Part shown: positions 120-31,255 of the stretch, piece by piece | How positions within the stretch are numbered: the stretch's first letter is position 1 | Layout: the number at the start of each line of letters is the position of its first letter | Virus record (IMG/VR): IMGVR_UViG_3300042566_000378 | Coordinates: 1 to 31,619 of that record | Direction: 5' to 3' (one strand) | Source of the DNA: a virus | Length of the DNA stretch: 31,619 nt | Notes under the pieces: model-generated | Databases searched by the model: none | What the model saw: only the letters and a program-made list of their open reading frames with translations | Told to the model about the DNA's origin: nothing | Position numbers and translations under genes: made by a program

Positions 120-1028
120 TCAGAATGACCAGTTATCAATCGGGCTATCATAGTTACCTATGGAGTGCGTACCCTGATAGAGTGACTCGGTCTGCGATGA
201 ATAACAATCGCACAACATGCGGTCGTTATGACAGAACCAACAAGCATCACACTTGGGACACAGGTCAGCCATGTCGATGTTGTCATCGTCAAAGTATTCG
301 TCATGACCACACTGAGCACAAGTCCACAACTCAGCCCAAGTGTACTCACTTGTCGTAGGGTCAAACCACGAGATGTCCTTGACATACTTAGACTCACCGT
401 AGGTAGTCTCGGGTGCAGGAGTCTTAGACCAACCACTCGTGTACAGTGAACTACCGCTAGGGGTGTAGGTGTAGCGACTGTACTTGTAGGAGTTGTTAGA
501 CCACCACACACCGTTGTGCCAGTGACCATCGTTCTCGTTGATGATGTAATGGTTCTCATTCACAGCGTGGTTAGCCGACAGAAACACAAGTTTAGAACCT
601 TTGGCAAACTTGGATAGTTTCTTACGCATCTTCTTGCTGTTGAGAATAGATGCGCCACCCATTTGGGGAAGCATCTCCTCAGCAAAGATACGAGTATCGG
701 ATTTACCATTCTTAGCCTCAATGGGTAGCATGCCGTTGTGTGCAACGATAGTTAGTTCGTCACGCCCAACTTGGAACGGGTGACAGTTCTCCAAACTAGT
801 ACCACCATGTGTTGTGATACGAGAGTGGAACAACGCCGGCCCCGAATGCTTGGCACGAACCTTGAGAAAGTCATCAAGAACTTTGTCAAAGTTTAGCCCT
901 GAACTGTGAATGATTTTTTTGCCAGCATGGACAGCGAAACCGAAACCATCAGGATTAGATGATGCACCTGTGGTCAGGTCGGTGATGTCGGCTGTGGTGT
1001 ATTCGGACATGAAAGTTAGCAAACACAT
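120..1028 (-). CDS. Class-II glutamine amidotransferase (Ntn hydrolase) with C-terminal zinc ribbon
   Basis: A 302-residue protein predicted to release ammonia from glutamine for an acceptor made by a partner enzyme. I start it at the ATG giving MCLLTF so that Cys2 becomes the N-terminal nucleophile after Met removal, which this family requires; a TTG nine bases upstream would bury the Cys. AGAAAGGGG ten bases before this ATG supports the choice. Family motifs in order are NPDGFGFA (25-32), FHSRITTHG (67-75), NCHPF (81-85), AHNGML (96-101) and SDTR (110-113). The C-terminal part (about 237-275) holds CAQC, CPKC, CWFC and CDC and is probably a zinc ribbon. It lies 5 bases after an amidoligase gene that also carries zinc knuckles, which suggests joint action. 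The catalytic class is fairly sure; the acceptor is unknown. Confidence 0.85.
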   Translation of the reverse strand: MCLLTFMSEYTTADITDLTTGASSNPDGFGFAVHAGKKIIHSSGLNFDKVLDDFLKVRAKHSGPALFHSRITTHGGTSLENCHPFQVGRDELTIVAHNGMLPIEAKNGKSDTRIFAEEMLPQMGGASILNSKKMRKKLSKFAKGSKLVFLSANHAVNENHYIINENDGHWHNGVWWSNNSYKYSRYTYTPSGSSLYTSGWSKTPAPETTYGESKYVKDISWFDPTTSEYTWAELWTCAQCGHDEYFDDDNIDMADLCPKCDACWFCHNDRMLCDCYSSQTESLYQGTHSIGNYDSPIDNWSF

Positions 1029-1033
1029 AACTA

Positions 1034-2143
1034 TCAAACCCCTTTCTCTGTTGCGTATGTATCGAAGTGTGTATATTTATTGGTGACAGTCCACTCACGG
1101 AACCGTTCCCAGTCGTGTGCACTCTTGATTGAGACATTGTTGCGTGTAGCGTAAGCGTAGTGCGCAACAGCGTGAGCAGCCTCAATGCGTGCAATGAATG
1201 TCGCAGGTCGTAGCGTACCCTTGAAGAAACGCAACTCTAAAGTGTGCGTGTTCTGCAAGTTGATAGCAACATAACGGCGTTGGTTCTGACTATGACCACG
1301 ATAGTGCTTGGCGTAGGTAGCCATCTGCTCTAGTTCGTACTCACTCCACTCGGCGTATGTGGACTCGGAACGACCAGCGATGCGCTTCCACTGCTCAGCA
1401 TTGCGGTAGAACATGGACATGAACCGATACATAGTTGACGGTGATGAGTCAAAGATGTTGCGGTTGATGTGAACATGCAAGCCACAAGTTCTAGTGTTAG
1501 CAGAACGCATACCGAGAGCTGACAACTCTTTCAGGTTTTGCCACGGGAACTCATCACGAGCAAACTTGTAGCCAAGCGGGTGAGACACCATCTCAAAACC
1601 ATGACTCAAAGAGCCATCTTCCTTGAGGTATGTCCACTTGCCGAACAAACTGTTTGCAAGTTCTGCACCGTCACTACGGTCACATTCCGTTGCCTCCATC
1701 TCTAACTCAAAACCTGTAAAGGTTTGGAGATGCTTAGGAAGTTTCTCATCTGCGTTGGCAGTAAAGAATATCGGGTCGGGTTTGTAACTGTACGACCTGA
1801 CATGTCGTGTTTCACGAGGACAACCGTCATCATCATAGTGACGCTCATCGCAATCACCACAATAATGTGTCTCCCTGTCTGAACAGGTTTCACACAAGTT
1901 GTGCTCATGCTGGTCAACCCACACTGTGTGGTTAGAGTGAACCCAACGACCACATGAGTGGCACGACATGGATTCGTCATTGCAGTCGTCACACACAAGT
2001 GCGCTACGACCATGACCATAGTCACGAGCAGGCTCAATCTCGTTCATGTCGTCAAGCGGATACTCGCATTGACAATTCATGCACTCGGCTAGTTCCTCCT
2101 CGGGCTCGTCAGGTACTTCGTTGTTGTTATTGATGTCAGTCAT
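1034..2143 (-). CDS. Amidoligase (GCS/GS-like COOH-NH2 ligase) with N-terminal zinc knuckles
   Basis: A 369-residue protein. Residues 21-98 hold five CxxC pairs (21/24, 51/54, 61/64, 84/87, 95/98), a probable treble-clef or ribbon array. From about residue 141 the amidoligase core is visible: FTGFELEMEA (acidic metal-binding strand), LKEDGSLSHGFEMVSHP (172-188), TCGLHVHIN (219-227) and RYVAINLQNTHTLELRFF (290-307). These are the ordered signatures of the putative amidoligase family related to glutamate-cysteine ligase and glutamine synthetase, which use ATP to join a carboxylate to an amine. The start has ACAGAAAGG five bases upstream. It sits directly before the glutamine amidotransferase and downstream of a second, shorter amidoligase. 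The substrate is unknown; peptide, peptidoglycan or virion protein are all possible. Confidence 0.8.
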   Translation of the reverse strand: MTDINNNNEVPDEPEEELAECMNCQCEYPLDDMNEIEPARDYGHGRSALVCDDCNDESMSCHSCGRWVHSNHTVWVDQHEHNLCETCSDRETHYCGDCDERHYDDDGCPRETRHVRSYSYKPDPIFFTANADEKLPKHLQTFTGFELEMEATECDRSDGAELANSLFGKWTYLKEDGSLSHGFEMVSHPLGYKFARDEFPWQNLKELSALGMRSANTRTCGLHVHINRNIFDSSPSTMYRFMSMFYRNAEQWKRIAGRSESTYAEWSEYELEQMATYAKHYRGHSQNQRRYVAINLQNTHTLELRFFKGTLRPATFIARIEAAHAVAHYAYATRNNVSIKSAHDWERFREWTVTNKYTHFDTYATEKGV

Positions 2144-2187
2144 GATGACCTTTCTGTGTTTGTTGTTGTTTGTTTTGTTACTCGCAA

Positions 2188-2209
2188 AACTCGGAACCGA
2201 TTCCGAGTT
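2188..2209. repeat. Stop-adjacent inverted repeat, copy 1
   Basis: Arms AACTCGGAA and TTCCGAGTT (9 bp) around CCGA. In the leftward transcript it begins 3 bases after the TAG of the 68-residue gene. An A-rich unstructured leader and the ribosome site of the large amidoligase follow. A TTTT directly after the stem in the leftward direction makes it weakly terminator-like. Three related copies lie at 3581-3602, 4137-4154 and 4686-4703. Confidence 0.85.
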
Positions 2210-2212
2210 CTA

Positions 2213-2419
2213 CTACCTTAGTACACCGTTGATATCAACCTTAGACAAATCAAGCACAGGCGTAATCAGCCAAGTGCCCTCACGCTCAAAAGCGGTTATG
2301 TCCTCATGGTCTACAAAAGTGAGACGGTTCTCCTGTTGATTGACACACTGCCAATACAAAATAGCGTCATTCGCTTGTGCTCGTGCAATCACACGACCGA
2401 TGTTGTTATCTGCTCTCAT
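2213..2419 (-). CDS. Small protein between the two amidoligases, unknown function
   Basis: A 68-residue protein beginning MRADNNIGRVIARAQAND. It has no recognisable motif and reads as a small mixed alpha/beta domain. Its ATG overlaps the stop of the short amidoligase (TAATG), and the AGGAG ribosome site lies in the last codons of that gene, so the two are translationally coupled. Its place between two amidoligases suggests an accessory subunit or a substrate carrier, but this is inference only. Its stop is followed after 3 bases by inverted-repeat copy 1. Confidence 0.7.
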   Translation of the reverse strand: MRADNNIGRVIARAQANDAILYWQCVNQQENRLTFVDHEDITAFEREGTWLITPVLDLSKVDINGVLR

Positions 2420-3036
2420 TATTTTTCTCCTGTGTTGTTTGTAAATGAACGGGCAACCGCATCCGTTGCGGTTAGGTAAGACAAGACAACATTCTTATCA
2501 AAAGAATATCGCCAAAATCTAACCTCTACTGTGTTTTTTCTTTCATTGACGGCAGAATACCTACTTTCATAATTACCACCCCAGTCAATATAGTTAGTTG
2601 TTGGGGCTATTGTTGTTGATTGTCGTGATTTTTGAGTAACACCCAAAATGCGCATCCACTTCATAAAGTGCAGAACATTCGCACTATCACCCAATGGTGC
2701 TTTATTGACATGAACATGAACGCCACGCTCGCCCGATGTATCGGGTATCTTCATACCTGAAGCATTTAGCGCAGACAGAAAACGCCAGTCAAACTTATTT
2801 CGGTAATAGTCAATAGTATTAGGTTTAGTGATTACCTCAAAACCATTGTGAAGTGAACTGTCGTACTTGAGTATCAAATCAGGGAACGAACGACTAATGC
2901 GATACGCAATGTCATTGAGCCTAGATTGAGAACCATCAGGTAACTCAAACTCAAACTCCAAACCCAGCAAAAGTTTATCTTTATCTGAATCAGGAACTGT
3001 AAAGTTTGCACGATATTCTTTGATGTATGTTTCCAT
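2419..3036 (-). CDS. Short amidoligase (GCS/GS-like COOH-NH2 ligase)
   Basis: A 205-residue protein with the amidoligase signatures in the right order: LLLGLEFEFELPDG (22-35, acidic metal ligands), YDSSLHNGFEVITKP (58-72), RGVHVHVN (104-111) and RYSAVNERKNTVEVRFW (159-175). Unlike the neighbouring 369-residue amidoligase it lacks zinc knuckles and is close to a minimal domain. The start is ATG at 3036 with AGAAAG about 11 bases upstream. The two ligases differ enough that they are not a recent duplication, so they may act on different substrates or form a mixed complex. The family call is well supported; the reaction product is unknown. Confidence 0.78.
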   Translation of the reverse strand: METYIKEYRANFTVPDSDKDKLLLGLEFEFELPDGSQSRLNDIAYRISRSFPDLILKYDSSLHNGFEVITKPNTIDYYRNKFDWRFLSALNASGMKIPDTSGERGVHVHVNKAPLGDSANVLHFMKWMRILGVTQKSRQSTTIAPTTNYIDWGGNYESRYSAVNERKNTVEVRFWRYSFDKNVVLSYLTATDAVARSFTNNTGEK

Positions 3037-3486: not shown

Positions 3487-3601
3487 AGTAGTTATCCTTT
3501 TGTTTTACTCAACCCTTTTAGTTGAGTGTTGCGCCCACGAACCGAAGCCCGTGGACACGCACCCGACTAAAACAATCAGGAACTCGGAACCGATTCCGAG
3601 T
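3487..3601 (-). promoter_or_regulatory. Structured spacer with three consecutive hairpins
   Basis: The leftward transcript of this 115-base spacer can fold three stems in a row: the repeat stem at 3581-3602, CCACG/CGTGG at 3535-3554 and a perfect ACTCAAC/GTTGAGT 7-bp stem at 3507-3527. The last ends about 10 bases before the AAAGGA ribosome site. This is far more structure than a simple intergenic gap needs. Confidence 0.5.
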
Positions 3602-3602
3602 T
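3581..3602. repeat. Stop-adjacent inverted repeat, copy 2
   Basis: Identical to copy 1 over AACTCGGAACCGATTCCGAG plus the final TT. The last base of the repeat is also the last base of the upstream gene's TAA stop, so the stem starts at the stop codon itself. Confidence 0.85.
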
Positions 3603-4051: not shown

Positions 4052-4155
4052 AATTTTGCTTTCTGTTATCTAACTAATCGTCAGTCACACTCACAGGTGT
4101 GATACGCCTCACGGCGTTTCATAGGGTAGATACAAACTCGGAACCGATTCCGAGA
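4052..4155 (-). promoter_or_regulatory. Structured spacer with three consecutive hairpins
   Basis: The leftward transcript of this 104-base spacer holds the repeat stem (copy 3), then ACGCC/GGCGT closed by a GTGA (GNRA) loop at 4104-4117, then TCACAC/GTGTGA at 4085-4102. The order and density resemble the spacer at 3487-3601 although the sequences differ. Confidence 0.5.
4137..4154. repeat. Stop-adjacent inverted repeat, copy 3
   Basis: CTCGGAA and TTCCGAG arms around CCGA. In the leftward direction it begins one base after the TAA stop of the 169-residue gene. Confidence 0.85.
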
Positions 4156-4685: not shown

Positions 4686-4703
4686 CTCGGAACCAGTTCC
4701 GAG
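4686..4703. repeat. Inverted repeat, variant copy 4 (operon leader)
   Basis: CTCGGAAC and GTTCCGAG arms (8 bp) around CA. The centre differs from the other three copies but stays symmetric. This copy is not next to a stop codon; it lies 5 bases upstream of the ACAGAAAG site of the first operon gene. Confidence 0.8.
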
Positions 4704-21703: not shown

Positions 21704-24700
21704 ATGGCTAATCCTTATACAGACCCTAGATACGCTATGGCTCGCCTTATGCGGGAGAAACCCGCTAGCGGTGCTTCTAGTAACCCGCTGTTGCAGGGTC
21801 CTCCTCCCAGCCCGGGTGCTGTCCGCTTGGGGCGGGCAGCCAACAATGCCGCTTTAAATAATCCTAGTTTACGTCAACAAATTGAAGCTATTAATGCCGG
21901 CAAGGAAACCGCCAAGCCGCAGGGTATTATGGGGACCGTTTTGGGGAATCCTATCGCCAAAGTTGGTTTGAATGCTTTGGGTACTTTGGCTATTCCTGGT
22001 CGTGCTACTGTTGCTGGTATTCGAGAAGTTGCGGATATTTTTGATGGTGATGCTAATACTAAGTTTTCTTTTTCTGATTTTAAAAAGAATGTTGGAGATG
22101 TTGAATACGGTTTTGGTAAAGCATTTAAGATTGATACCGGAAGTAAGTGGCTTGACCGTGCTATTGGTTTTGTGGGGGACGTTGCTCTTGACCCGTTAAC
22201 GTATGCTACTTTTGGTGCTGGAACTGGTGTTGGAAAGTTTGCTGGATATTCGGGACGTTTGAAACTTGCTAAGGAAGTTTTAAAGAACACTGGTGACGAA
22301 GCTTTGTCTACTGTTGTCGCACGGGTAGGTCGTTCTGCTTTGCGTGATAAACCTGAAGTTTTGGAACGTGTTGGTGCAAACAAGTTTGGTGTTTATTTCT
22401 TTGGTAAAAGAATTAAAGTTGGCAAAGATGGTGCTGGTCTTCGTGTTCCTATGAGTGGACAAATTGGCGAGATTGGTGAAGCAACTTTAGCTAAGTTGCG
22501 TTTAGCTATTACGGATACTCGTGCTGGCAAATACATGCAGAAGATGACTATGCAGAAAGACATGCTTAATGCACGTCAAAAACTTGCGGCTGGTGCTGCT
22601 AGCCCGAGCGAGGGTGCTGACATTATTAGATTTTTGGATGCTATACCTAAGGAGCGTGCCGCCCGTGGGGCTGCACTTCAAGCGTTTGAGCAGGAAGTTT
22701 TGGCTCTTATTAAGAGTGAAGAGTTTGCTGGGCTTGAAAACTATCGTGGCGATTTGTATAAGTTTCTTGAAAAGCCTGAACTTCTTGATACTGCAACAGA
22801 AGCTCAACGTCATGGTTATGAAGTTTGGAAGGCGTGGTTTGATAAGCACGCAGCCAATGTTAACGCAGGCATAAAAGCTATTGACCCCGAGGGTCATATT
22901 GAAATGCGTCAAAATTATTTTCCAAGAACTTTAACGGATGACGCTATTCGTTACACTCGTGGTGATGGTGTGCATTCTGATGAGTTGCGTAAAGTTTTTA
23001 TGGATGACCCTTTTGCAAAACCTGGTGCTTTTACTCCTAGAAGTTTAACTACCGAAAAGAAGTTTTTTGGCGAGGTGTTAACTGAAGCTGACATGAATAT
23101 TGAATCCCTGAATGCCATCGCTAAACGCAACGGCTTTGAGGGGGATTTCTTTGAGACCGACATTGTGAATGCGGCTCGCAAATATATCTATGATGCTTCA
23201 GACGAGATGGGTATGATTGCAAGAAATCAGGCTTTGATGGAGAGTGGTTTCTTTAAACGCCTTGATGAGATGCGTGTAACGGAATTAGAAATTGATGACG
23301 ATACCATCGCTTTTGCACGTGCAACTCTCGATGCTGCTAAGTCCTCTATGGATAATGTTGACCAGGAGTTCCGCAAGTCTCTAACCGACCTAGCTGTGTC
23401 TGTAAGAACACAGGCAAAATCTGTTGCGGATGAAATGGTTACACAAGAGCAAGGTGTACAAAATATTTCTAAATATTTGTACGACTCCAAGGAGCGAATT
23501 GCTCAACTGGGTCAACTAATTGAGAACGCAAAGACTCGTGTTGCTGCGATGATGGGTGACCCTTCGGAGATTATGCCGTACTCTCTCAGTGATGATTTCC
23601 CAAGTGTTGCTAAACCAATTCTTGACCAGTTTGATTCTATAACAAACGAAATTAGCACATATCAAAGATTGCTTGATGACGCATACACAGAGATGAGTTT
23701 GGGTCGTCTTGGTTTAAACGGTATTGACTCTAGGTTGGTTGAGCTTGAGGATGCAGCCACACGTGCTTATGCGGCGTATTCTGATGCCCGTGAATCTATT
23801 GAATCTGCAATGGAGTTCTCTAATGTACTCCAGGCAAACTGGGATAGTATTGTTATAGGGACCAACCTTGGTGGTTCCGGCGGTTCATACGCAATCTTGA
23901 AATCTATTAAGGATATTCTTGAAACAAGTTCTGTTACTTCTACTGGTGCGGCACGTAAACGTGCTCAAGCGTTAGGTATTAAGGGTAGCCTTGCGCAGTT
24001 CCTTAAGGGTGGGGATTCTAGGTCTGATGCTGGTAAGTATTTCGACTCTGTGTTTGCGGAAATGTCGGGTGCATATACTGGTGCTATCCAGCGTTCCAAG
24101 GTGAACATGACGCAAACAGAGTTTTTGCGTCGTGTTAACAATGCTCTTAGTGATGATGTTTCTTTGATGCAGTTGCGTGAAGCTGCGCTTTACGCTATTG
24201 GCCGAGATATCCGCATACACAACGCTTCTTCTTTTGATGGTTTGCCTGCTATTGTGCAGGAGTTCCACACCAATCTTCGTCGTGTTTTGGATGAGGCTGT
24301 AGAGGTTGACCGTTATCGTTTAACTGCCGGCAAGGCTAATAAGCTTGGTGAGATTGATTCATTTAAGGAACGTTTTGGTCCTACATATCGCAAGGCACGC
24401 TCGCTGCAAAGAGACATAGAGGAGTATGATGCTTTTACTGAGTATCTTACTGAAAGTTTTGTTTCTTCTAGCGCAAGGTTTGCTGACGAGGGTGTTGATG
24501 TACTTGATGGTCCGTTGACGGAAGATGTTGCCAAAAACCTTGAAAAAGCTATTGGCGAGCTTTACTTTGACGGCAGAAAAATAGGTCTGCCTTGGTTGCG
24601 TGACTATATTGACAACCCTGTTAAAACGCTAGGAAAGGCTGTAGGTGAAGAACCAACATTGAATGAGGTTCTTCAAGCTGTGAGAATTAAGAGGCAGCAA

Positions 24701-27700
24701 ACTAAAGCAGCTTTTGACAATGGCGTTGACACTATACAGACAACGGCTAAAGAGTCAAATCTTCTTCGTGGTAAATCAAAAACTGAAGGTGAAATACAAA
24801 TTTCTTTTTCAGAGGTTGTTCAAAGATACAAGAGTGTTCAAGAAAAACTTGGGAAAGATGTTTTTGTTAGTTCTCGCATTATTGATAAAGCATTAAATCC
24901 TGAAATGACCAAAGTTGAGCTTGCAGAAAAGCTTTTAACTTATGAAGCCGTGTCTAACGCTGTCGTAAAGTTTGAAGCCGTTGCTGGCATTATGGCATCT
25001 CATGGTCTTGCCCCTACAGAAGAAATGTGGCGTGGCATTTTGCGTACTGTAAGTTCGCAGTACGGCCCTCAGTTTAAGTCTAAGGTTACCGAGTCTATTC
25101 GTGCTCGTGAAGTTCTTGAGGGTGTTCGTGAAACGTTTATGTTGGAAATGGAAAAGGTTAGAAATATTCCTGATTCATATGCTACCCCTAGTTATGTTTT
25201 TGAAAATGCATTACGTCAGGCTTTGGAGTCTTCTGATGGTGAAATGATTCGTGAAATTCTTGGACCTAGTTTGTCTAATTTTTATGACCCGTTTGATATG
25301 CAGAGACGCATTAAGGGTTTAACTTCACAGATTAGAACTTCAGGAAATGAACTTAGACAGGCTGAAGCGGAACTTGCTGGTTTAACAAGCAAGAATTCAA
25401 CCCAGGCTCAAATTCTTCAACAAAAAATTGGAGACTTGCGTTCAGCTAATTCTCTTTACAAATCTCAAAAAGAACAGTTTGTTAAGAACTTTGTTATGCC
25501 TTGGGCTAAAATGGTTGACCCTACACGTCGCAACCAGCCAGGTCCTGCTATGGAGATTCTTAGAAGGCAAGTCGGTAATGCACCCAAGGGTGACATAGGT
25601 AAGCTTGGTTCTCCTCTTTCTCGTGAAATTAGTGAACAACAAATTTATCGTTGGTTCTCTGATTTGTTTGGTTCCGAAAGACAAGTTTCTGATGTGTGGG
25701 ATGTTGTTGGTGGAAACGCAGACACTATTGTAAGTGATGGTGTTATTAAAACTCGTGGCTCTCTTGACGGTATGCAACGTCAATATATTGATGCTATGCG
25801 TTTCTTCGACCGCATGAGCGACGGGTTCCTTGATGTGGATGCGTTCTTTAAAAATCCTGATGCTTTCCAAAAAACACCATCTAGTTATGCTGCTGTTATG
25901 GATGGGTTCATTAGACAGCTTGAGTCTTCTCTTGGCAGTTTACCACAGGCACAGAATCGTGGCTTTGGTCAGGCTGGCATAACTGAAGGTTCGGGGCTGC
26001 GTGGGTTGACTCCTTTTGAAGCTGTTAGACCTGCGGAAAGAAATGTACGTCAAACAGCACGTGAAGTTTCAATGGCTGAGTCTAAGGCTGCTAAACAGCG
26101 TGAGGTTTTTGAGGCTTTCCGTAATCCTGACTTGTCTCCTGAGGAGCTTTCGGAGCTGGGGTTCACTAAGTCGATGATGTCTGCTCGTGACGCTGTGCTT
26201 GCGCACAACGGTCATCGAGCTACTCTTGAGTATGCGAAAGCAACACAAGATAGGGAGATGATTTCTTTCTTGGATGCTGTTGCTGAACTTGACTTTTCTA
26301 AGTTTACTGATGGTATTGTTGTTGACGTAAACAGAATCCCTATTTATGAGGGTTCTGTTCAGAGGGCTAACACTCGGGCTTATGATGGTCAGATTGCTGG
26401 TTTTCAGCAAGAGATTGCTGGTCTTCAGAAGAGTTTGGAAGATGGTCGTAATGCTATTCTTCGCAAACACAAAAGTGCTGATGGTGCTTGGAAGTCTCCG
26501 GAGTCTGAGGGGTTTGCTTCTATTGAGTTGGATGGCTGGAATCAGCGTCAGGGTCGTCAGATTGAGCGTAGAATTTCTTCTTTGGAATCTCAGGTGGAAG
26601 AGGTTCAGATACAGTCTGCTGGCGGCAATGCGGTTCGTACTGCCGAAGCTGGTGAGGTTGCGCCCGATGGTCGTGTGATTGTCGACTATGAGGAGCAGCC
26701 CGTGTGGGCTACCATGCCTGATGGTTCTCGTTTGGTGTTTACTCCTGAGGAGTGGGACTCACTGTATAGCAAGCCGTTGAATGCTCTTGATGCTAAGAAC
26801 TACAGGGCTAAGATTAAATCTTTGGACAGGGAAATTCGTGGACTTAACCGGGAAATTGGTAAGCAGCGTGAACGTATTGGTGGTCGTGCTTTTTGGGGTA
26901 GGCAGAAACTTCAAGAGATTGTGGATGCTCGTGATGCATTAATTGGTGAGATGCGTTCTATTCAGCGCATTTTGGACACCACAAACGTTGCGTTTAGAAA
27001 CTCTGCTTTAGAGAAGGTTAGAATTTTAACCACACAACAACCCGGTGGAAGTAAACTTATTTCTTCTTGGATTGACGCTATGACAATGAATACTGCTAGG
27101 AATCCTCTTAGTCCTGCTGGAAGATATTGGACAGACGCTAATGGATACAGCATGCGTCGTGTTGCGCAAATTAAAGGTAAAGCCGCTTCAGCAATGGAGA
27201 CTTTGGGCTTCTACCGCAGTAAAGACCCCGTAGCTTTTACCAAGTCTAAACCTTATCACAGCATGACTAATGGTGGTGCTACGGCACGTAGGGCAAACCT
27301 TCAGCAGGCTTGGTCACAAAACTCTTCTTATAAGGTTTTGTTGCGTGATGAGGAGCTTGCTAAAATGGCGGCTTCTGAAGTTTTTGCAGATGCAGACAAG
27401 AAGACACGCATGCTTAGCAAGGCTGCCCGTGAGGCTCGTGTTCTTGCTGACAGGGCTTCTAGAGAGTTTGATATTGTTGAGCGTACTATTCGTGATTCAA
27501 TGACGGGTATTCGCAGGGCGGAGTTTGATGCTGCTCGTGCTGCTAAGGCGCAGTTTGAGTTCCCTGAGGAGATGTTGGATTTTGCTGCTGACATTGAAAT
27601 ACCCATGCGATATACGCTTAATGGTAAGCAGTATGAGGTTCCTTCTGTTGTTCAGATGTTGAGAAATCCTGACAAGTATCTTAAGCAGGCAAATAAAAAA

Positions 27701-29791
27701 GGTAATTTCTTTTTTGATTTGCGTCAAAAGGGTAATGTCGCCATGTGGAAAGATATGGATGAGCAGGCTCGTTCCGCATACACAGTAGGGGCTCTAAAGA
27801 GGGCTTACGATGATGTGATAAAGGATAGTGCTTTTGTCTATTTTAGTTTGCGTGAACCTACTGTTGCACGTATAGCTGAGCTTGAAAATCTTGCAGCTAA
27901 ATGGTCGGATGATATTTCCGTGTTGCGTGAGTCTACTGAGTATATGCGTCAGGTGTTGAAGTGGGAACGTGGTTTGGCTGAGTCTGACATTGTTAATTAT
28001 TCTGATGATATTCTTCGTGAGCGTCTTGACATGTTTGAATTGAGTGAAGAAATTAAAGCGTTGTATGGTGCCGACTTTGATATTACTGCAGATTCTTTGG
28101 GTAGGGTTGAAAATCGTTTGGCTACTCTTCGTTCTCAGGAGTCTTTGTTTGCTGATTTGGCGCAGTCAGCACCATCAACTGCAAGTGCAAAGTCTTTGCT
28201 TACCTCCAAGAAACCTGCCACAGTTGAACGCTGGCGGGGTGTGTTTCAGGATTGGGTTGACGAAAATCGTCAAACACTTAGTGCACTAGCAGAAGCTGAC
28301 TTACTAAACTCCACAAACCGAAAGGTTTGGGATTCATGGATGAAAGCACAAACAGCGGAAGCTCGATTTATTCGTGAACAATCTTCTTTGTCTGCGGCTT
28401 CTAGTGCTCTTGACACGGCAACTGCTGGTGTTATGGTCGAGAAGGTTGTTAAGCCGTTCGAGAAAGAGTTCCGCAAGGTTGCTAAGGAAATGCTTGACGC
28501 AGGTAATTTGCGTATGGCTGACGATATGAACCTTCCTAGTTTTGCTGTGAATAGTGACAGCATGGCTATTTTGAATAACCTTGCTAGAGCACGTGAGGGT
28601 GCTATGGTTCGTGAGTTGGGAAGATTTATGGGTCAATACACTGGTTTCTTTAAAGCATATGCAACCCTTAGCCCTGGTTTCCATGTTCGTAACGCAATCA
28701 GCAACACCTTCCAGTTGTTTGCTGCCGGAGCATCGCCTGTAGAGATGAGTCGTGGTTTGAAACTGTATCGCTCTATGGGTGAGTTTATCAAGAACGGTGG
28801 CACATACGAGGATTGGTTAATGACTTTACCTGAGGGTGTCCGTGCTCGTGCACGCATTGCTGGTGATGTTAACCTTGGTCTTGGTGGTGGTAACGTTGAT
28901 GACGCCTTTAGAGAGTTTGTTGATTTACGAAAAGGTAGACTGGTTAACAACTTTGCTACTAGAGCTTCTAGAAGTTTTGGACGACGTGTTGAAGGCTCGG
29001 CTCGCTTCATGCTTGCTTGGGACTCAGCAGTTAGAGGCGACGATTATGTGTCTGCGTTTAACCGCACCAAGCGATTCTTGTTTGACTATAACGACCCCAC
29101 AATTCTTGATGAGACTGTACGTAACATCATTCCGTTTTGGACTTGGATGAGCCGCAACCTTCCGTTGCAGCTTGTCAACCAGTGGGCCAACCCACGTCCT
29201 TATTTGATTTACGAAAGGTTTGCCAACAACTTTGGTGCTGGCGAGGATGATGTTTTGCCGTCCTACATGCAGGAAACAGGTCACTCTATTAAACTTGGTG
29301 GAGCTATGTGGTTGCACCCTGACCTTCCTCACTCTAAGGTTCGTCAGCAGGTTGAGGAGTTTGGCAATCCTGTAAAGATGATGTCTTATGTTAACCCTGG
29401 TTTGCGTTTGCCTGTTGAGTTGATGGGTAACCGCAAGACGTTTAACGATGCACCTTTTACTGGTGAGTTTAAACCTGTGGATGCTAAGTTTATGCCATTT
29501 TTACCTTTGCTTGCAGCCTTGGGTCAGGTTGAGTACACGCAAGATGGTAAGCCTGTTATGACCGAGAAGGCGCAGTATGCTTTGACTAGTGCGTTACCAA
29601 TGCTTGGTCAGGCTGAACGTTTGTTCCCATCTACGGACGCTGGTGACGGTATGGCTTTAGCCAGGTATTTGGGTATTCCCTTGCGTCAGGTTGATGCGCA
29701 ATCGCAGGACCGAATTAAGCTGGGTCGTTTGGCTGAGATTAATGAGTTGGCTAACAGGAACAAGAAGATAGAAGAAGCGTACGGACAATAA
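21704..29791 (+). CDS. Giant 2695-residue virion protein, probable ejection/internal protein
   Basis: One uninterrupted frame of 8.1 kb, a quarter of the window. The N-terminus (residues 1-60) is Pro/Ala/Asn-rich. Residues about 150-175 contain WLDRAIGFVGDVALDPLTYA, a segment I associate with very large phage virion proteins. Most of the middle is long charged helices and coiled coils (for example AEAELAGLTSKNSTQAQILQ). Near residue 2320 LSPGFHVRNAISNTFQ and near 2475 NIIPFWTWMSRNLPLQ are membrane-active-looking, proline/tryptophan-rich segments also typical of these proteins. No lysozyme, MuF or ADP-ribosylating motif was found by eye. It is last in the late operon, where T7-like phages put the large ejection protein. 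The start has only a weak AGGTAAC upstream. Confidence 0.7.
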   Translation: MANPYTDPRYAMARLMREKPASGASSNPLLQGPPPSPGAVRLGRAANNAALNNPSLRQQIEAINAGKETAKPQGIMGTVLGNPIAKVGLNALGTLAIPGRATVAGIREVADIFDGDANTKFSFSDFKKNVGDVEYGFGKAFKIDTGSKWLDRAIGFVGDVALDPLTYATFGAGTGVGKFAGYSGRLKLAKEVLKNTGDEALSTVVARVGRSALRDKPEVLERVGANKFGVYFFGKRIKVGKDGAGLRVPMSGQIGEIGEATLAKLRLAITDTRAGKYMQKMTMQKDMLNARQKLAAGAASPSEGADIIRFLDAIPKERAARGAALQAFEQEVLALIKSEEFAGLENYRGDLYKFLEKPELLDTATEAQRHGYEVWKAWFDKHAANVNAGIKAIDPEGHIEMRQNYFPRTLTDDAIRYTRGDGVHSDELRKVFMDDPFAKPGAFTPRSLTTEKKFFGEVLTEADMNIESLNAIAKRNGFEGDFFETDIVNAARKYIYDASDEMGMIARNQALMESGFFKRLDEMRVTELEIDDDTIAFARATLDAAKSSMDNVDQEFRKSLTDLAVSVRTQAKSVADEMVTQEQGVQNISKYLYDSKERIAQLGQLIENAKTRVAAMMGDPSEIMPYSLSDDFPSVAKPILDQFDSITNEISTYQRLLDDAYTEMSLGRLGLNGIDSRLVELEDAATRAYAAYSDARESIESAMEFSNVLQANWDSIVIGTNLGGSGGSYAILKSIKDILETSSVTSTGAARKRAQALGIKGSLAQFLKGGDSRSDAGKYFDSVFAEMSGAYTGAIQRSKVNMTQTEFLRRVNNALSDDVSLMQLREAALYAIGRDIRIHNASSFDGLPAIVQEFHTNLRRVLDEAVEVDRYRLTAGKANKLGEIDSFKERFGPTYRKARSLQRDIEEYDAFTEYLTESFVSSSARFADEGVDVLDGPLTEDVAKNLEKAIGELYFDGRKIGLPWLRDYIDNPVKTLGKAVGEEPTLNEVLQAVRIKRQQTKAAFDNGVDTIQTTAKESNLLRGKSKTEGEIQISFSEVVQRYKSVQEKLGKDVFVSSRIIDKALNPEMTKVELAEKLLTYEAVSNAVVKFEAVAGIMASHGLAPTEEMWRGILRTVSSQYGPQFKSKVTESIRAREVLEGVRETFMLEMEKVRNIPDSYATPSYVFENALRQALESSDGEMIREILGPSLSNFYDPFDMQRRIKGLTSQIRTSGNELRQAEAELAGLTSKNSTQAQILQQKIGDLRSANSLYKSQKEQFVKNFVMPWAKMVDPTRRNQPGPAMEILRRQVGNAPKGDIGKLGSPLSREISEQQIYRWFSDLFGSERQVSDVWDVVGGNADTIVSDGVIKTRGSLDGMQRQYIDAMRFFDRMSDGFLDVDAFFKNPDAFQKTPSSYAAVMDGFIRQLESSLGSLPQAQNRGFGQAGITEGSGLRGLTPFEAVRPAERNVRQTAREVSMAESKAAKQREVFEAFRNPDLSPEELSELGFTKSMMSARDAVLAHNGHRATLEYAKATQDREMISFLDAVAELDFSKFTDGIVVDVNRIPIYEGSVQRANTRAYDGQIAGFQQEIAGLQKSLEDGRNAILRKHKSADGAWKSPESEGFASIELDGWNQRQGRQIERRISSLESQVEEVQIQSAGGNAVRTAEAGEVAPDGRVIVDYEEQPVWATMPDGSRLVFTPEEWDSLYSKPLNALDAKNYRAKIKSLDREIRGLNREIGKQRERIGGRAFWGRQKLQEIVDARDALIGEMRSIQRILDTTNVAFRNSALEKVRILTTQQPGGSKLISSWIDAMTMNTARNPLSPAGRYWTDANGYSMRRVAQIKGKAASAMETLGFYRSKDPVAFTKSKPYHSMTNGGATARRANLQQAWSQNSSYKVLLRDEELAKMAASEVFADADKKTRMLSKAAREARVLADRASREFDIVERTIRDSMTGIRRAEFDAARAAKAQFEFPEEMLDFAADIEIPMRYTLNGKQYEVPSVVQMLRNPDKYLKQANKKGNFFFDLRQKGNVAMWKDMDEQARSAYTVGALKRAYDDVIKDSAFVYFSLREPTVARIAELENLAAKWSDDISVLRESTEYMRQVLKWERGLAESDIVNYSDDILRERLDMFELSEEIKALYGADFDITADSLGRVENRLATLRSQESLFADLAQSAPSTASAKSLLTSKKPATVERWRGVFQDWVDENRQTLSALAEADLLNSTNRKVWDSWMKAQTAEARFIREQSSLSAASSALDTATAGVMVEKVVKPFEKEFRKVAKEMLDAGNLRMADDMNLPSFAVNSDSMAILNNLARAREGAMVRELGRFMGQYTGFFKAYATLSPGFHVRNAISNTFQLFAAGASPVEMSRGLKLYRSMGEFIKNGGTYEDWLMTLPEGVRARARIAGDVNLGLGGGNVDDAFREFVDLRKGRLVNNFATRASRSFGRRVEGSARFMLAWDSAVRGDDYVSAFNRTKRFLFDYNDPTILDETVRNIIPFWTWMSRNLPLQLVNQWANPRPYLIYERFANNFGAGEDDVLPSYMQETGHSIKLGGAMWLHPDLPHSKVRQQVEEFGNPVKMMSYVNPGLRLPVELMGNRKTFNDAPFTGEFKPVDAKFMPFLPLLAALGQVEYTQDGKPVMTEKAQYALTSALPMLGQAERLFPSTDAGDGMALARYLGIPLRQVDAQSQDRIKLGRLAEINELANRNKKIEEAYGQ

Positions 29792-30253: not shown

Positions 30254-30447
30254 TCAGTTTTTTCGGCCTCCGCACGCATTGAGCCTTCCATCGCCGTGGC
30301 TACCATGACGATTTGTTCTACGGCTGTTGGTCCGAACTTTTCCTCTAGTAGTGAGATGATTGCAAAGATGTTTGCTACCAACCAAAACAGGTCAACCTCG
30401 TGGGTTTCCTCTTCGGTTGTTTCATTCGTGTCCGGTGTTAAATCCAT
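30250..30447 (-). CDS. 65-residue acidic helical protein, unknown function
   Basis: It begins MDLTPDTNETTEEETHEVDL, an acidic disordered start, then a helix LFWLVANIFAIISLLEEKFG and a second helix with VEQIVMVATAMEG. The hydrophobic helix is interrupted by charges, so it is more likely a dimerising helix than a membrane span. It overlaps the end of the sigma/DUF1599 fusion gene by 26 bases and the next gene by 4 bases. Confidence 0.6.
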   Translation of the reverse strand: MDLTPDTNETTEEETHEVDLFWLVANIFAIISLLEEKFGPTAVEQIVMVATAMEGSMRAEAEKTE

Positions 30448-31255
30448 AGTCGTCTCCTAGGTTTAGTTTGAAGGTGTCATCCATGAGCATCAACGCTATT
30501 ACCGTGTACCCTACGATGTCTAATAGTGTATCATTCGTTGACTCATTTTGAGCCTGATGACCTAATTTTGTGAGGTTTGCGTATCGTTCTATTTTGTCGC
30601 TCATCCGGACGATGACTCCGTATGTTCCGAACTTCAGGATGTTGCCGTGACCGTAGTCGTGCTGCTTTTTGCAGAGTGTGGCTACCATGTGTCCTGTGTC
30701 CCATGTTTCCCTGAGTCGCATTTCGTGTATCGCCATTAACGCTAGCGATTCGAATGCTCGCTGTGGGCGTTGTACGGTGTCGATTTGTTCCCAATAGATT
30801 TCCGCTAGGCTTTCTATTGTTTCTTGCATGAGGGGGATGTCGATGCTTATGCATCGCTCATCCTGAATGCCAGCCAAGTACATGACCCACTGCATTGCTG
30901 ATTGGTCCCATGTGTCTGCGAGACGGATTGTTTTTCTGATGGTGGTGTCTGTCGCCATTACGCCCTTTAGTTTCTCGAAGGCTGCGTTACGCAGTCTCCA
31001 TACGTGTGTTTTAGTTATGCCAAGTTCATTGGCGATTGCTTGCAGGGATTTTCTTTCGCTTATACAGGCGTTGATTATCCACAGGTCACGTTCTCCTAGT
31101 TGGTCTACGATGATTGCCACTGCTTCTCTGAGTACCATGAGTTCTTCTTGTGAGGTCTCGGGTTCTTCGAATGGCTTTGTCATCATTAAAGCTTCTAGTT
31201 CGTTTTCAGGTGCCCTGTCTGCTGTTGTCCTGATGGGTTTAAATTCATTCGTCAT
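30422..31255 (-). CDS. Sigma-70 region 4-like HTH fused to DUF1599-like (nucleotide modification associated) domain
   Basis: A 277-residue protein with two recognisable parts. Residues 41-100 match sigma region 4: LGERDLWIINACISERKSLQ, then AIANELGITKTHVWRLRNAA, with FEKLKG closing the helix. Residues about 193-262 match the DUF1599 / nucleotide-modification-associated pattern: KKQHDYGHGNILKFGTYGV, VRMSDKIERYANL and NESTNDTLLDIVGYTVIA. That domain is all-helical, MazG-like in motif layout (conserved acids and K-x-x-D-Y-G), and occurs in phages with modified or guarded nucleotide pools. The middle (105-190) is helical and unassigned. It overlaps the nuclease gene upstream by 11 bases. It could be a regulator with a nucleotide-sensing or hydrolysing half. 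Confidence 0.75.
   Translation of the reverse strand: MTNEFKPIRTTADRAPENELEALMMTKPFEEPETSQEELMVLREAVAIIVDQLGERDLWIINACISERKSLQAIANELGITKTHVWRLRNAAFEKLKGVMATDTTIRKTIRLADTWDQSAMQWVMYLAGIQDERCISIDIPLMQETIESLAEIYWEQIDTVQRPQRAFESLALMAIHEMRLRETWDTGHMVATLCKKQHDYGHGNILKFGTYGVIVRMSDKIERYANLTKLGHQAQNESTNDTLLDIVGYTVIALMLMDDTFKLNLGDDYGFNTGHE

Follow-up and report, generated by a model that had tools for sequence, protein, structure and literature searches.

A strongly linked amidoligase and glutamine amidotransferase gene pair in phages and bacterial mobile elements, a candidate two-part amide synthetase

Paired amidoligase and glutamine amidotransferase genes have been described in phages before: four later papers (PMC10580990, PMC3890496, PMC11253131, PMC11318856) credit such pairs to Iyer et al. 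2009, and the initial annotation of the locus described here was right to mention them. A pair was previously reported in Marvin and OM43 phages, in the OM43 case without a resolved function (PMC10580990), and paired amidoligases are reported in two prophage papers (PMC11253131, PMC11318856). We have analysed a locus of this type in a viral DNA stretch of 31,619 nucleotides (IMG/VR record IMGVR_UViG_3300042566_000378, positions 1-31,619), hereafter referred to as the window. Its minus strand at 120-3036 carries four open reading frames (ORFs) in one direction and at the expected places, confirming the leftward block originally annotated: a class-II glutamine amidotransferase (120-1028), a large amidoligase of 369 amino acids (1034-2143), a 68-residue protein (2213-2419) and a small amidoligase of 205 amino acids (2419-3036). 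By profile alignment (hhalign), the pair formed by the large ligase and the amidotransferase is homologous to that of phages phiEco32 and LUZ24 (95.5%, E 1.6e-8 and 94.6%, E 6.6e-8) and so belongs to an already-known type. The new elements of this study are how strong and how widespread the two-gene linkage is, its mobile-element setting, the assignment of both ligases to one family, and an isolated small ligase. On balance, we lean towards the pair encoding a single, two-part amide synthetase that depends on glutamine and is carried by mobile elements, a carboxylate on a host peptide being its most likely target.

The linkage between the two genes was assessed with a ligase-only profile, which had hits in over 580 stretches of viral and over 540 of bacterial-genome DNA; the best 80 of each were kept, the sample representing the best-scoring part of the ligase family. 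After merging ligases at 85% identity into de-replicated groups and leaving out loci cut by a contig end, all 67 viral groups and 59 of 61 bacterial-genome groups had the amidotransferase gene immediately downstream of the ligase gene and in the same orientation, including loci found by the ligase alone. In one of the two genome exceptions (locus L145), the next gene clusters with amidotransferases by BLAST. Separate searches returned 24 viral loci via the amidotransferase and 10 via the large ligase, and every uncut one had the ligase followed by the amidotransferase in the same direction. The two genes are closely spaced (median gap: viral loci, 11 bases; genome loci, 1 base) and vary together, with correlations between ligase and amidotransferase distances (r 0.93-0.95) above those obtained when the ligase is compared with nine further genes from these phages (0.62-0.88). 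Thus, the recurring linkage anticipated for related phages is borne out for the pair, which is common, with strong linkage, in phages and bacterial mobile elements alike. The four-gene block that had been suggested as a conserved unit is rejected: loci with the same order keep the ligase and amidotransferase only, the 68-residue gene being restricted to a small clade and the small ligase to the window, so that the minimal unit is two genes, sometimes with two ligases.

The amidotransferase is most likely translated from the ATG at position 1028 (302 amino acids) and not from the TTG at 1037, which places a cysteine directly after the initiator methionine. It matches the Pfam family GATase_4 (E 3.9e-6, 26.4 bits, above the cut-off of 23), its own profile matches GlmS and PurF structures, and it consists of an N-terminal nucleophile (Ntn) domain (approximately 489-1028) and a C-terminal Cys-rich tail (approximately 204-320). 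The expected conservation of Cys2 held in all 18 aligned homologues, where M1, R70, T73, G75, H97, N98, G99 and D111, as well as C237, C240, C260 and C263 of the tail, are also invariant; more broadly, a Met-Cys start is shared by 65 of 67 viral and 63 of 65 bacterial-genome homologues. The R-x-x-T-x-G, H-N-G and D motifs bind glutamine in GlmS, and we take their counterparts in the window protein to be equivalent. As read from the sequence, this glutamine-site pattern with Cys2 is intact.

The large ligase matches Amidoligase_2 (PF12224; E 8.9e-8, 32.7 bits, above the cut-off of 22) and phrog_16683 (E 1.8e-37). It combines an N-terminal region with zinc-knuckle-like Cys pairs (approximately 1820-2083) and a domain (approximately 1145-1720) for which the initially proposed glutamine synthetase/glutamate-cysteine ligase (GS/GCS) fold is borne out by structure prediction. 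The model (pLDDT, a per-residue confidence score, of 80) matches YbdK, glutamine synthetase, GmaS and PafA in the PDB by Foldseek (E 1.7e-5 to 6e-4, probability 0.99-1.00), Dop also being among the matches; amide-forming enzymes are represented by glutamine synthetase, gamma-glutamylmethylamide synthetase and PafA. Motif residues G144, E146, E148, K174, D176, E184, H223, H225, R290, N295, E303 and R305 are invariant. Families, predicted large-ligase fold, intact motifs, linkage and co-variation are what the data show. The zinc knuckles of the two large proteins had been read as a sign that they dock together, and Cys-pair segments are indeed present in both, but a docking role is not supported by their distribution in the family. 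Of 126 pairs, 119 have two or more such segments in the ligase and 79 have as many in the amidotransferase, and most non-actinobacterial cellular pairs have them in the ligase only; hence the two sets of segments are not needed together. Matches of the Cys-rich region to LIM domains in the PDB (E 0.37 or worse) were set aside.

The genomic surroundings of the pair point to a mobile-element setting on both the viral and the cellular side. Phage genes, including those for terminase and portal proteins, accompany the pair in the viral relatives of the window. In Clostridia, 103 neighbouring proteins were scanned, and resolvase (14), DUF960 (12), integrase (5) and NikA-like mobilisation (2) proteins were found; a relaxase, a TraG-like ATPase and a Tn916-type excisionase were each seen as a single case. 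The pair is also carried by a Mycobacterium intracellulare plasmid. Actinobacterial neighbours offered few clues, one of them having an ArdC N-terminal domain. We propose that the two genes move together among phages and bacterial mobile elements, to the benefit of the element that carries them. Two further genes are common to the viral relatives (loci near L034, L082 and L104), both named by eye from their sequences: one for a calcineurin-like phosphoesterase, and one for a WhiB-like protein located three to five genes 3' of the ligase in 37 viral groups, which suggests actinobacterial hosts. An occurrence in Asgard archaea, considered as an argument against a murein target, was dropped, being limited to 1 of 148 genomes and possibly to a stray contig.

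In the proposed synthetase, Cys2 of the Ntn amidotransferase would free ammonia from glutamine, and the GS/GCS-fold ligase would spend ATP on activating a carboxylate (probably to an acyl phosphate), which the ammonia would then convert to a carboxamide; joint action, ammonia transfer, target and benefit are what we infer from the evidence above. The target would most likely be a peptide-borne host carboxylate, perhaps in the cell envelope, with a role in entry or superinfection exclusion such as the literature proposes for phiEco32. An envelope target is reasonable because peptidoglycan is amidated in mycobacteria and clostridia, with the caveat that phages infecting Gram-negative bacteria (Methylophilales) have the pair as well. 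A cell-envelope peptide is also the published guess for phiEco32, as conveyed in PMC10580990, PMC11253131 and PMC11318856, and a target in the cell envelope or in a host protein would explain a statement widely repeated in the phage literature. The phage's own lysin-like protein had been suggested as a reason for peptidoglycan modification, and no link was found between the pair and this VanY-type (D,D-carboxypeptidase family) protein.

Several observations weigh against the proposed synthetase. We found no homologue with a measured substrate, no sequence features that single out a particular target, and no fusion of ligase and amidotransferase among the loci examined. In Clostridioides phage AR1086-1 and plasmids related to it, the gene after the amidoligase is annotated as a nucleotidyltransferase and not as an amidotransferase, which implies that in more distant family members the ligase can occur without the latter. 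The template-modelling (TM) scores of the large-ligase matches are low (approximately 0.35), as expected when a multi-domain model is compared with distant members of a fold. As a separate observation, the plasmids and phage of this group (pCd18_2, L194; AR1086-1, L195) resemble related phage-plasmids. We know of no characterised precedent for a two-subunit, glutamine-dependent amide synthetase of the GS/GCS fold. A dedicated enzyme of this kind, used in common by phages and by conjugative or mobilisable elements to counter exclusion or defence by the host, with a second ligase widening its targets in the window, is a speculative extension to which we give only a minor chance.

The small ligase (2419-3036) scores below the Pfam cut-off of 22 for Amidoligase_2 (E 0.037, 14.3 bits), and its relatedness to that family follows instead from matches to phrog_16683, the PHROG shared with the large ligase (E 9e-12), and to the large ligase itself (29% identity, E 5.5e-13). 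It retains G25, E27, E29, K57, D59, E67, H107, H109, R159, N164, E171 and R173, all of them invariant columns of a 19-member alignment. The match to the large ligase and the shared invariant residues rule out a separate family, and the two ligases initially described as dissimilar are both relatives of Amidoligase_2. The protein has no Cys-rich N-terminus and a shortened middle, with approximately 40 core residues lost; its model (pLDDT 77) matches glutamine synthetase and YbdK at E ~1e-3, the middle being of low confidence or unmodelled. The gene has a G+C content of 39%, vs. 46% for the whole window and 48-49% for neighbouring genes, and its branch in the ligase tree is very long (5.64 changes per column). 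By these comparisons, the small ligase is a shortened, AT-rich and very divergent member of the large ligase's family. A recent copying of the window's own large ligase is unsupported, the identity to it in this comparison being 26%, vs. up to 31% to other ligases. No second ligase was found among 30 related records, several of them fragments, and a search of viral contigs with the small ligase as a single-sequence query gave no match.

The small ligase is best regarded as a rare and probably acquired accessory. As a recent addition to the proposed synthetase, it may modify a second group or substitute its own specificity for that of the first ligase. Its long branch, the loss of the core and Cys-rich regions, the low-confidence middle, the AT-rich composition and the absence of a second ligase in the 30 records would also fit a decaying or regulatory paralogue without catalysis, in which case the two-gene core alone matters. 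We hold this to be possible but not likely, given the retained invariant motif residues, an intact ORF that overlaps the next gene by one base, and the recurrence of the two-ligase arrangement in Clostridia, where loci L156, L157 and L171 have two full-length ligases before one amidotransferase. Since phiEco32 and LUZ24 also have it, the window is not alone in having two ligases upstream of one amidotransferase. Loci L114, L117, L122, L123 and L137 (Nocardia, Actinocatenispora) likewise have tandem pairs or additional ligases, with as many as three ligases per locus.

An alternative role for the whole pair is, instead of simple amidation, a small peptide-modification pathway in which the ligase couples an amino acid or a peptide (e.g., gamma-glutamyl) to an amine of a peptide or metabolite, and the Ntn protein acts as an amidase or transferase trimming or donating glutamyl groups. 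Consistent with this, YbdK, of the glutamate-cysteine ligase family, is among the PDB structures that best match the ligase model; the homologous pair of phiEco32, LUZ24 and UFV-P2 sits in a cassette with a RimK-like ATP-grasp ligase and a gamma-glutamyl cyclotransferase; and prophage amidoligases of Terrisporobacter and C. clostridioforme adjoin a gamma-glutamyl cyclotransferase. However, the latter family (PF06094) was absent from the window and 19 related records, many of them fragments, while the control matched in 9 of 14 genomes, indicating that a cyclotransferase step is not needed in the window's system; the intact glutamine-site motifs of the amidotransferase also argue against glutamyl ligation, which we regard as unlikely. 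General scans of the window proteins, none of which was aimed at ATP-grasp, gave no ATP-grasp match. Modification of phage DNA or a nucleotide (a hypermodified base) that shields the mobile element from host defence would fit the sharing of the pair by phages and conjugative elements, which have little else in common beyond DNA exposed to that defence, the presence of DUF1599 ('nucleotide modification associated domain 1') in the window and many relatives, and the position of the pair directly before replication genes in OM43 phage MEP402, but it appears improbable, because DUF1599 is not adjacent to the pair, follows the ligase poorly in its distances (r 0.64) and owes its name to annotation only, the operon has no base-modifying partner, and no PADLOC model of known defence systems was matched.

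The remaining member of the block, the 68-residue protein, had no Pfam match. Its gene was found in 8 de-replicated viral groups, each time just upstream of the ligase, all in the close clade of the window. The junctions of the block, initially described as tight throughout, are so between the large ligase and amidotransferase (5 bases) and between the small ligase and the 68-residue gene (one-base overlap), but 69 bases separate the latter from the large ligase. These contain a perfect palindrome, AACTCGGAACCGATTCCGAGTT (2188-2209, no strand), immediately 3' of the 68-residue stop codon and ahead of the large ligase, with a predicted fold z of -4.3. With up to 3 mismatches allowed, the window has 4 copies (vs. 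0.04 expected), all in the leftward gene block (2188-2209, 3581-3602, 4137-4154 and 4686-4703) and with the core CTCGGAA-4 bases-TTCCGAG; three of the four lie directly 3' of a stop codon. Six copies occur in the related locus L007 and two in L013, one preceding the ligase in both, and none in the more distant relatives checked. These palindromes could be terminators, RNA-processing hairpins or operator sites. Elsewhere, the plus strand of the window carries terminase, P22-like portal, capsid, tail fibre and VanY-type genes, as well as a single 2695-residue ORF (21704-29791) that takes up a quarter of the contig. On the minus strand, a 277-residue protein (30422-31255) combines a segment weakly resembling sigma-70 region 4 (residues 51-97) with a C-terminal DUF1599 (residues 197-256); in relatives, the DUF1599 protein is encoded by a separate gene of 126 residues.

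In the OM43 (Methylophilales) phages MEP401 and MEP402, the amidoligase adjoins the amidotransferase as in the window, but the single ligase is longer, the amidotransferase has no Cys-rich tail and the genes overlap. Pairs in clostridial and actinobacterial genomes (e.g., L117, L137, L156, L181) share the window's order and short spacing, often near recombination or mobilisation genes; they differ in belonging to cellular genomes and in occurring as tandem pairs (L114, L117, L137) or with two full-length ligases (L156, L157, L171). In the AsnB/LtsA-type enzymes that amidate peptidoglycan, a class-II glutaminase domain feeds ammonia to an ATP-dependent amide-forming partner. They work as the proposed pair would, but their synthetase half has an asparagine-synthetase and not a GS/GCS fold, and no membership is claimed. 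The phiEco32 and LUZ24 cassettes have the same ligase-amidotransferase order and likewise a second ligase and a small gene upstream. Their second ligase belongs to COOH-NH2_lig (PF14395), to which the small ligase of the window is not detectably related (profile probabilities of 5% and 0.4% against the LUZ24 and phiEco32 proteins), so that equating the two is unsupported; the PF14395 profile matched nothing in 20 records, although its positive control also gave no match anywhere. In the Marvin and MosMoris mycobacteriophages (genes 108-109), the gene after the amidoligase runs in the same direction and encodes a class-II amidotransferase of the window protein's subfamily (29-32% identity), with a Cys-rich tail as in the window; they differ in having a single ligase, 78 bases between the genes, and neither the 68-residue gene nor the small ligase. 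The Marvin group, as phages of Mycobacterium smegmatis, offers a culturable model in which the target of the pair could be found by mass spectrometry.

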